NCBI GenBank assembly: GCA_944389505.1
Contig: CALXMP010000009.1
Location: 1 to 64,000 of the forward strand
DNA from: an uncultured Spirochaetaceae bacterium
Lineage (GTDB): Bacteria; Spirochaetota; Spirochaetia; Sphaerochaetales; Sphaerochaetaceae
Length of the DNA: 64,000 nucleotides
Direction of reading: 5' to 3'
Shown here: one piece after another, positions 26,329 to 28,968 of the stretch
Layout: each line of letters opens with the position of its first letter
Numbering within the stretch: the first letter of the stretch is position 1
Notes under the pieces: model-generated
The model's input: the letters and a program-made list of their open reading frames with translations, nothing else
What the model was told of the DNA's origin: nothing
Databases searched by the model: none
Made by a program: the position numbers and the translations under genes

Positions 26329-26865
26329 TCAGGCTGATACGCACAGCCTTGCAATTGATGTGCCGTTTCTGTACATGGTCCTGTATATATCCCTGCATCT
26401 GCCATACATTGAGAAGAGCTTGATTGCTCTGTCGGCAGAGCTATAGACCTTCCATAATCCCGATAGCATTGGATTCTTTCCTCCATCTCTGATGAAGCCT
26501 TCGACATCCTCGGCAGGGTAGCCGAGGAACAGGCCAACCTCATGAGGGCATGATTCCTCCTGGAATCTTTCCATGAGATGGTTCAGACTTGCTTTGAGCG
26601 ATGATGTATCGTAGCCAAGCTGCTTCAGGATTTCCTTAGCTTTTGCATCTTCCAATGCCTTCCTCAGTTCCTTTTCCCTGTAGACAAGAAGCAGGTGCTT
26701 CCCCTTCATTGTCCTTATAGCCATGAATGACAGTCCTTTCTCTCTAAGCTCTTTTCCTGGAAGGCTTTCTTTGCTGTCGAGCCTTGCAAGGCTAATCAGA
26801 GATGCACATTTTATCCCAGCTAGCGTCGGAGCAGAGTGCTCGATAAGCAGATCCGAAAGCGTCAT
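26329..26865 (-). CDS. DUF3793-family protein
   Basis: 178 residues. The pattern LIEHSAPTLAGIKCASLISL, then LLVYREKELRKAL, then EVGLFLGYPAEDVEGFI, WKVYSSADRAIKLF and YRTMYRNG is that of DUF3793. The conserved Cys in IKCASL and HEVGLFLGYP are typical. Its function is unknown, but the family often sits beside flavodoxin and iron-regulated genes. AGGAGG precedes the start, immediately downstream of an operator-like palindrome. Confidence 0.85.
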   Translation of the reverse strand: MTLSDLLIEHSAPTLAGIKCASLISLARLDSKESLPGKELREKGLSFMAIRTMKGKHLLLVYREKELRKALEDAKAKEILKQLGYDTSSLKASLNHLMERFQEESCPHEVGLFLGYPAEDVEGFIRDGGKNPMLSGLWKVYSSADRAIKLFSMYGRCRDIYRTMYRNGTSIARLCVSA

Positions 26866-26875
26866 ATATCCTCCT

Positions 26876-26891
26876 GTTAGCTATTGCTAAC
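26876..26891. promoter_or_regulatory. Operator-like palindrome, proximal copy
   Basis: GTTAGC-TATT-GCTAAC, a perfect 6-bp inverted repeat with 4-base spacer, directly beside the ribosome site of the DUF3793 gene. It has the TTAGC-N4-GCTAA form seen for DtxR/MntR-type metal regulators. The twin copy lies exactly 100 bases away. Confidence 0.7.
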
Positions 26892-26900
26892 TCATTTATG

Positions 26901-26944
26901 TCTCAAAAAGGCCGGGCGGAGAGAAGGACCGAAGTTGCCCGGCC
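26901..26944 (-). terminator. Terminator inside the DUF3793 leader (attenuator or sRNA end)
   Basis: On the minus strand, GGCCGGGC (26944-26937) and GCCCGGCC (26917-26910) form a perfect 8-bp GC stem followed by TTTTTGAG. It lies between the promoter at 26962-26991 and the coding start, so most transcripts could end here after about 55 bases. Confidence 0.65.
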
Positions 26945-26961
26945 AGATGATTCACAAGGGC

Positions 26962-26991
26962 AGTATAGCATATCAGTTAGCTTTTGCTAAC
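26962..26991 (-). promoter_or_regulatory. Promoter with distal operator for DUF3793-flavodoxin
   Basis: On the minus strand, TTAGCA, 17 bases, then TATACT preceded by TGC (extended -10 at 26970-26962). The palindrome GTTAGC-TTTT-GCTAAC (26976-26991) covers the -35 and part of the spacer, so a bound repressor would block polymerase. The predicted start is near 26955. Confidence 0.65.
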
Positions 26992-27002
26992 TACTTTTCA
27001 CC

Positions 27003-27031
27003 TTGACCTTGATTGATTTTGTCGATATTAT
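27003..27031 (+). promoter_or_regulatory. Promoter of the acyl-CoA synthetase gene
   Basis: TTGACC (27003-27008), 17 bases, then TATTAT (27026-27031). The start near 27038 gives a 38-base leader with GAGGGGA before the ATG. The distal metal-box-like operator lies 12 bases upstream of the -35 and could affect both directions. Confidence 0.55.
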
Positions 27032-27075: not shown

Positions 27076-28968
27076 ATGTTCAGTACACTCGTTCAGATGT
27101 TTGATAACAGGGTAGCAAGGGCTCCTCTTGCCACATGCCAGATGGGAAAGGATGAGAAGGGAGCTTTTATTCCTGTTTCGTTTTCCGAGCTCCAGGAAAG
27201 ATCGAGAGCACTCGCTCTGGCACTGATGGAAATCGGGGTTAAGAGAGGTGATGCAGTCGGCCTCCTCAGTGATAACAGGCCTGAATGGCTTGCCGCTGAT
27301 CTTGCTGTTCTCTCGCTTGGCGCTGCGGATGTGCCGAGAGGCCGTGATGCGATGCCCTATGAGATTGAGCATATACTCAAAGTCACATCTGCATCGGTTG
27401 TATTCGTAGAGAATGACGAGCTTGCCGAAAAGCTGAATCAGGTCAGAGAAAATCTCCCAGCGCTCAGGACTGTGATACTGTTCGACAGCGAAAAAACAGT
27501 TGCTGATGCTGAAAACATACACTATGGAGATCTCCTGAATAGGGGAATGGAGCTTCTGTCTCTGCCTGAGGGCCGTGAAAGGATCCAGCGGGAGATAAGC
27601 CTTGGCTCAGAGAATGATACAGCTACAATCATCTTCACATCCGGTACAACAGGGCTCCCGAAGGGAGTTATGCTGTCCCACAGGAATATGCTCTATCAGC
27701 TGGGGGAGATCGATAAGATAATAGAGTTCCAGCCTGGCTGGAAATGGCTTTCTGTCCTTCCTGTATGGCATGCATTCGAGCGTATAATCCAGTATGTCTC
27801 CCTTTATGAGCTGAGTGTGCTTGCTTATTCAAAGCCGATCGGAAAGATAATGCTTACAGATATCCAGCGTGTCAATCCTGAGCTTCTCTGCTCTGTACCG
27901 CGCATCTGGGAGACCGTAAAGGCAGGTGTATACCAGTCTCTCAAGTCCAAGAAGCCTGCTGAGAGGAAGATTTTCAATTTCTTCCTCGCTGCCGCGAAGC
28001 GCTACCGCCACTATGAGAATCTTGTGCTAGGCCTGGATCCGAGATTCTCCAAAGGCTCGCATGTATTCGATAAGATCCGCGGGATCATACCTTATCTTGT
28101 TCTGAAAATGATCTATTCCATCGGCGATAAAGCCGCATTCTCACAGATAAAGAGCAAGTTCGGTACATCGTTCATCGCTGGTATATCCGGAGGCGGTGCA
28201 ATGAGCAAGGACGTCGATGAATTCTTCTCCGCTATCGGTATAAAACTGCTCAATGGTTATGGCATGACAGAGACAGCCCCTGTTGTCGGTGTTGCGGCAT
28301 ATCCTCACCCGAAGAAGGGATTCATCCATACATTCGCAGGTACGGAGCTGAAGGTAATAGAGCACGATACAGGCAAGGTCCTTCCCGTAGGCGAGATGGG
28401 AGAGCTGCTTATCAGAGGACCGCAGGTGATGAAGGGTTATTTCGGCGACGAGGAGCGGACAAGGCAGATTATCGACCGCGATGGATACATACACACAGGT
28501 GATCTTGCCATCCTTGATATCGATGGAGATTTCTCAATCGTGGGAAGGGTGAAGGATACGATAGTCCTCTCCGGAGGTGAGAATATCGAACCGGTACCCA
28601 TAGAGAATGCGATGAAGGAGAGCGAGTACATCGATACGGCGGTCGTTGTCGGGCAGGATGAGAAATACCTTGGTGCGCTTATTGTCATCAATGAGAAGAA
28701 CGTGGAGAGGTATCTCAAGGAGAACCATATCCCATATGTCAACAGAGAGTCGCTTAAGGAGATGGATGAGGTCAGGAGGCTTGTCAATTCTGAGGTCTCA
28801 AGGCTTGTATCCTCCAGTGCGGGCTTCAAGGCATATGAGCAGGTTTCACGCTTCGCGCTTCTCGATAAGCCATTCACAGTAGGGCGTGAGCTTTCAGCAA
28901 AGCAGGAAGTGAAGAGGGCCGAGGTCATGAAGCTCTATAAGAAAGAGGTTGAGGCTATCTTCGGCTGA
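27076..28968 (+). CDS. AMP-dependent long-chain acyl-CoA synthetase
   Basis: 630 residues, usual length for FadD-like ligases. The P-loop motif TIIFTSGTTGLPKGVMLSH is near residues 185-203, the GYGMTETAP motif near 395, and the hinge DGYIHTGDLA near 473. The enzyme activates fatty acids with ATP and CoA. The C-terminal catalytic Lys region is present (SAKQEVKRAEV). mnmA begins 17 bases later but has its own promoter in the gap. Confidence 0.92.
   Translation: MFSTLVQMFDNRVARAPLATCQMGKDEKGAFIPVSFSELQERSRALALALMEIGVKRGDAVGLLSDNRPEWLAADLAVLSLGAADVPRGRDAMPYEIEHILKVTSASVVFVENDELAEKLNQVRENLPALRTVILFDSEKTVADAENIHYGDLLNRGMELLSLPEGRERIQREISLGSENDTATIIFTSGTTGLPKGVMLSHRNMLYQLGEIDKIIEFQPGWKWLSVLPVWHAFERIIQYVSLYELSVLAYSKPIGKIMLTDIQRVNPELLCSVPRIWETVKAGVYQSLKSKKPAERKIFNFFLAAAKRYRHYENLVLGLDPRFSKGSHVFDKIRGIIPYLVLKMIYSIGDKAAFSQIKSKFGTSFIAGISGGGAMSKDVDEFFSAIGIKLLNGYGMTETAPVVGVAAYPHPKKGFIHTFAGTELKVIEHDTGKVLPVGEMGELLIRGPQVMKGYFGDEERTRQIIDRDGYIHTGDLAILDIDGDFSIVGRVKDTIVLSGGENIEPVPIENAMKESEYIDTAVVVGQDEKYLGALIVINEKNVERYLKENHIPYVNRESLKEMDEVRRLVNSEVSRLVSSSAGFKAYEQVSRFALLDKPFTVGRELSAKQEVKRAEVMKLYKKEVEAIFG

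Follow-up and report, generated by a model that had tools for sequence, protein, structure and literature searches.

A conserved hairpin between two DtxR-type iron boxes, a candidate iron-starvation small RNA, upstream of a DUF3793-flavodoxin operon in uncultured gut spirochaetes

The 64,000-nt stretch of DNA analysed here (the window) carries two copies of the operator GTTAGC-N4-GCTAAC on either side of a GC-rich hairpin, directly upstream of genes for a DUF3793 protein and a flavodoxin, and the arrangement raises the question of what binds the operators and what the RNA encoded between them does. A preliminary description had offered three meanings, namely DNA looping, a roadblock combined with control of initiation, and a metal-controlled small RNA with read-through into the operon. 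Both operators were found to be exact, perfect palindromes 100 bp apart (26876-26891 and 26976-26991), and their described positions, op1 over the -35 element (TTAGCA) and op2 abutting the AGGAGG ribosome site, were borne out by the sequence, as was the gene order, DUF3793 then flavodoxin, by Pfam domains (table 1). Flavodoxin is an iron-free electron carrier. The structure of the DUF3793 protein was predicted very confidently (pLDDT 94), and no convincing match to its fold was obtained among the solved chains compared (best 2guk, Z 5.6); the family has an invariant motif, PHExGxFLGYPxxD. Op1 might also touch the FadD-like gene on the other strand, since the divergent promoter lies 11 bp away; the FadD gene did not adjoin the box in the relatives G040, G041 and G075.

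Table 1. Positions of the features in the window.
Feature	Position	Strand	Remarks
Upstream iron box op1, GTTAGCAAAAGCTAAC	26976..26991	(-)	overlaps -35 element
Downstream iron box op2, GTTAGCAATAGCTAAC	26876..26891	(-)	directly 5' of ribosome site; position conserved in Ornithospirochaeta
Promoter: -35 TTAGCA 26990-26985 (in op1), 17-bp spacer, extended -10 TGcTATACT (TATACT 26967-26962)	26962..26990	(-)	9/12 matches, TG before -10
Divergent promoter TTGACC-17-TATTAT of FadD-like gene 27076-28968	27003..27031	(+)	near-consensus; op1 ends 11 bp upstream
Conserved RNA hairpin, model R1: 8-bp core stem 26944-26937 with 26917-26910, 19-nt loop 26936-26918	26909..26945	(-)	
Nearly invariant loop core UCCUUCUCUC	26919..26928	(-)	able to pair with Shine-Dalgarno-type sequences
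T5 run after stem	26905..26909	(-)	only in source lineage, nearest relatives and stand-alone copy
Shine-Dalgarno AGGAGG of DUF3793 gene (ATG at 26865)	26870..26875	(-)	
DUF3793 protein, 178 aa	26329..26865	(-)	PF12672, E 8e-51
Short-chain flavodoxin, 139 aa	25901..26320	(-)	PF00258, E 3e-13

Within the window alone, two box matches were within chance if two mismatches were allowed. A scan of the whole source genome (2.12 Mb, 19 contigs), as the preliminary description had proposed, returned seven exact boxes, no box with exactly one mismatch and no match to the reversed control pattern, which points to a sharp operator and not to scattered words. Perfect boxes were present in 76 of 139 genomes of the family, and op1 followed by an extended -10 was a conserved arrangement in Ornithospirochaeta.

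The other five boxes of the source genome precede an ABC exporter, a peroxiredoxin, a CsoR/P1B-ATPase pair, PFL and PFOR. The exporter pair carries Pfam ABC domains and presumably belongs to the siderophore type, resembling YbtPQ/IrtAB; the peroxiredoxin is of the 1-Cys type and has tetR downstream; the PFOR box lies about 0.2 kb upstream of its gene, and a box at this iron-sulphur enzyme is odd, being unexpected for a regulon induced purely by low iron. In relatives, boxes were located before feoA-feoA-feoB, FecB/C/D-like uptake genes and hydrogenase-type genes, the product names being read from translations. In two genera, represented by G024 (L037) and G052 (L180), a box, with one mismatch in G052, separates feoAB from a short DtxR-like gene that is transcribed in the opposite direction. 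The box was thus found before iron-homeostasis genes (feoAB, siderophore-type ABC exporter, peroxiredoxin, flavodoxin), as in a DtxR/IdeR-type iron regulon.

Several details of gene arrangement were recorded at these sites. In C6 of the source genome, just before the PFL iron box, one open frame (L008:16374-17417) begins as a TetR regulator and finishes as an ABC exporter; a deletion between two related tetR-exporter loci could have produced such a fusion, or an assembly error. Nearby (L008:13844-16296), the gene for an HMA_2-containing P1B-type ATPase is followed by that for a small HMA_2 protein, a layout situated among iron-box genes and recalling ferrosome (fez) loci. In two relatives (L081:1230-1606 in G013 and L060:3021-3215 in G039), the peroxiredoxin and PFL genes diverge from a stretch with a pair of boxes, each box immediately 5' of a ribosome site.

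A single DtxR-family gene was identified in the source genome (C13, L019:1303-1683, 126 aa), with PF01325 and PF02742 both over the cut-off. Alignment of the C13 protein to solved DtxR chains placed a Met (in EMYL) and the segment ACRIEH at DtxR Met10 and Cys102/Glu105/His106. DtxR binds metal through Met, Cys, Glu and His, and MntR through Asp, Glu, Glu and His (PMC4805248); the ligand set of C13 is therefore of the iron type, unlike that of MntR, and points to iron. The single-dimer site of IdeR is TTAGGNNNNCCTAA, TTAGG-N4-CCTAA (PMC8464063), and the core of the present box, TTAGC-N4-GCTAA, has the same layout, with the inverted repeat TTAG-N6-CTAA. From the regulon, the feoAB and DtxR neighbours, the iron-type ligands and the IdeR-like layout, the reading of the operators as DtxR-type iron boxes, presumably bound by the C13 regulator, is well supported.

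The box was not confined to the family. A GTDB scan gave 80 DUF3793 loci, mostly of Clostridia with Brachyspira and others; in 51 of them the 260 bp upstream contained GTTAG-N6-CTAAC (up to one mismatch), whereas 0.4% of shuffles did. Most Ornithospirochaeta and many Clostridia have a pair of boxes flanking the DUF3793 leader, and two or three boxes were counted at 30 of the 74 DUF3793 loci outside Ornithospirochaeta. Of the earlier suggestion of a DtxR/MntR-type operator, the DtxR/iron side was thus upheld by the iron-gene context, the boxes before DUF3793 in Clostridia, the adjoining DtxR-like gene and the iron-type ligands. In three DUF3793 leaders of relatives (L126 in G044, L130 in G071 and L132 in G043) the boxes are 34-37 bp apart and the hairpin has been lost.

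Of the 37 Ornithospirochaeta genomes that carry DUF3793, 20 have a hairpin with a loop of 14-20 nt bearing UCCUUCUCUC, in 18 distinct sequences; the loop motif was absent from about half of the Ornithospirochaeta DUF3793 leaders. The stem sequence differs almost everywhere, yet 99.3% of cells were paired in the 18 distinct sequences, against 54.3% after shuffling, in an alignment that leans towards structure (N-padded to equal length, bulged bases removed in four sequences, stems picked by folding) and is guarded only in part by slid, shuffled and unconstrained-flank shuffle controls. In all eight core stem pairs both sides had changed, not one of 500 shuffles equalled the real alignment in paired cells or covariation score, and slid registers reached at most 48%. 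Each hairpin sequence folded better than its shuffles (z -2.3 to -6.4), and the loop was far more conserved than the stem sequence. With the covariance model, the best match fell at the DUF3793 leader in nearly all hairpin-bearing genomes, as a rule with one copy per genome; weak second matches had no nearby box and look like chance. No Rfam family was matched at the gathering score, the only sub-threshold match, Ysr49, being attributable to chance. Leaders with a single box in the sister genus g2 have a comparable hairpin with ACUCCUUCU, which the covariance model did not detect.

The preliminary description had taken this element for a terminator. The GC-rich stem and the T5 run are present, but the loop of 19 nt exceeds the 3-8 nt accepted by a standard terminator scan, so that the hairpin went unlisted, and the U-run is not conserved: it was present in the source genome, G042, G048 and a stand-alone copy, and mostly absent after the hairpin in relatives. 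Instead of merely ending transcription, the element between the boxes is probably a conserved small RNA of iron starvation.

The stand-alone copy lies in G075 (L191), an 83%-complete MAG in which no DUF3793 was detectable. It comprises op1, the extended -10, an 11-bp stem, the UCCUUCUCUC loop and a U-run, UUAUUCUUUUUU, with no op2. It adjoins mnmA, the gene near which the source operon lies, and after it comes an oppositely oriented sensor-kinase gene, with no downstream gene on the strand of the hairpin. This copy was outside the training set of the covariance model and scored E 0.0011; its folding z was -5.25. In mnmA, G075 and its nearest compared relative, G040, share 77% DNA identity (23% different), and the differences between their hairpins keep the stem paired and leave the loop core unchanged, the left part of the loop being different. 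Since G075 keeps box, promoter, hairpin and U-run without DUF3793, it is the strongest hint of an RNA role apart from the operon, from one 83%-complete MAG. The element thus has features of an iron-sparing small RNA, that is, an iron-regulator box over its own promoter and a conserved structured RNA able to stand as its own gene.

Possible trans targets were sought with the perfect complement of the loop, GAGAGAAGGA, which occurred at 36 places in the source genome against 32 for the reversed control and was not enriched. Two of the 29 places examined were at plausible ribosome sites of long genes, those of a rubrerythrin and an SSF-type transporter. The rubrerythrin site carries a perfect 10-nt loop complement (L198, source genome C1:388141-388150), conserved in many but not all relatives, and overlaps the end of an upstream frame that resembles PerR on a reading of its translation. 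The pattern GAGAGAAGGA-N(2-11)-ATG was present in all genomes of the genus, with or without the hairpin. By permutation, loop and rubrerythrin site did not co-change (p 0.57), and neither did loop and own Shine-Dalgarno (p 0.38). With the co-change and enrichment tests negative, rubrerythrin as a candidate target is only a lead.

From these comparisons we narrowly favour a mechanism in which a short DtxR-type iron repressor acts on both boxes and low iron yields a small RNA with read-through into DUF3793-flavodoxin. The palindromes would be single-dimer sites of the short, iron-loaded repressor. With sufficient iron, the repressor would occupy op1, over the -35 element, and op2, before the ribosome site, and the unit would be off; when iron is scarce, it would be expected to leave both. 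Transcription would start about 7 bp after the -10 element, and the first product would be a hairpin RNA of about 50 nt with a large loop displaying UCCUUCUCUC. As an iron-starvation small RNA it could pair through this loop with the ribosome sites of other mRNAs. A fraction of transcription would continue into DUF3793-flavodoxin, with op2 as a putative second block on read-through; a roadblock by op2 is plausible. Most relatives have no U-run after the hairpin, and there processing would be required to yield a short terminated RNA.

Some of the observations could be accommodated otherwise. The boxes might belong to another regulator, of the TetR, CsoR, Crp/Fnr or Rex type, with a redox or copper response in place of an iron response, and the tetR and csoR genes within the regulon and the fermentation genes PFL and PFOR would suit such a regulator. 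The box before feoAB and beside dtxR in two genera, its IdeR-like half-sites, its occurrence before DUF3793 across Clostridia and the DtxR-like gene in 125 of the 139 family genomes argue against this, and make it very improbable. Looping of the DNA between two repressor dimers would account for paired boxes that flank a leader, but the spacings, 37-112 bp in the source family and 15-101 bp elsewhere, vary, and those of the source family showed no helical phasing (Rayleigh p ~0.17, n 30). Double boxes are a common habit with free spacing, and the distance of exactly 100 bp is a coincidence of the source lineage. Bridging tetramers are not known for short DtxR-type dimers, and looping is regarded as extremely improbable.

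For the hairpin, a role solely as an intrinsic terminator or attenuator that sets read-through into the operon would fit the 8-bp GC stem followed by T5 and the U-runs listed above. Terminator function needs no conserved loop, and here the 14-20-nt loop varies far less than the stem sequence and most relatives have no U-run, which renders this role improbable. Harder to set aside, if unlikely on balance, is an action in cis only, by which the pyrimidine loop, or a bound protein or ribosome, sets how efficiently the DUF3793-flavodoxin mRNA is translated or how stable it is. The hairpin is in the DUF3793 leader in nearly all cases, its loop is able to pair with its own Shine-Dalgarno, and the fold predicted for the single-box g2 leaders pairs ACUCCUUCU with their ribosome site. 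In the hairpin-less leaders L126 and L130, op2 is preceded by CUCCU and followed by AGGAG, and these could lengthen the op2 palindrome into a helix that masks the ribosome site. Against an action in cis only stand the co-change of loop and own Shine-Dalgarno, which did not go beyond permutation, and the stand-alone copy, which has no downstream same-strand gene to control. Of the three meanings first offered, the metal-controlled small RNA with read-through is the best supported, through the conserved, covarying hairpin and the one relative that keeps it without the operon.

Extended to the lineage, the sequence comparisons lead us to put forward, as a tentative proposal that falls somewhat short of a favoured one, the idea that Spirochaetia possess a new small-RNA family, under DtxR control and serving in iron starvation; its members would be single hairpins whose UCCUUCUCUC loop is invariant, which form the DUF3793-flavodoxin leader between two iron boxes and can also persist free-standing. 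We know of hardly any description of iron control in most gut spirochaetes and many gut Clostridia, and of no iron-sparing RNA in the spirochaete phylum. The motif GTTAG-N6-CTAAC before DUF3793 in gut spirochaetes and Clostridia can serve as a query for tracing a wide DtxR-type iron regulon, and through the box the DUF3793 family is linked to iron starvation. Should the hairpin prove to be a small RNA, it would count among the iron-sparing RNAs and would have arisen in an unusual way, as the leader of the very operon it accompanies; it could be how these uncultured gut spirochaetes save iron.

The box and an iron-controlled small RNA are of known kinds, and the hairpin RNA family appears to be undescribed. 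With the single-dimer (half) operator of IdeR/DtxR the present box shares inverted TTAG-type halves and the 14-bp layout, and the systems are alike in having a DtxR-type regulator with Met/Cys/Glu/His ligands and in the control of iron genes (PMC8464063). They differ in the fifth base of the half-site, which here is C (or T/A) and not G, giving GTTAGC-N4-GCTAAC, in the short regulator of 126 aa without the C-terminal SH3 domain, and in boxes that are usually paired but separate (PMC8464063). TroR of Treponema is likewise a spirochaete DtxR-like repressor with a dyad near a sigma-70-like promoter, but it controls troABCD with Mn and Fe, and neither DUF3793 nor a hairpin RNA has been described for it (PMC2628430). 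MrsI, a mycobacterial small RNA with a single IdeR site, is similar in having a DtxR/IdeR box in the promoter of a small RNA gene, with iron sparing proposed to act through a short seed; the present case belongs to another phylum and has a single hairpin with the UCCUUCUCUC loop, embedded as a flavodoxin-operon leader, and candidate targets (PMC8628891). In its pyrimidine loop the hairpin is similar to iron-sparing small RNAs such as IsrR, which have C-rich seeds (PMC11257911). FsrA and IsrR share with it a C/U-rich single-stranded stretch able to pair with ribosome sites and control by iron starvation, but they are Fur-controlled, with several C-rich regions and a separate gene, whereas control here would be by DtxR (PMC12871923, PMC11257911).
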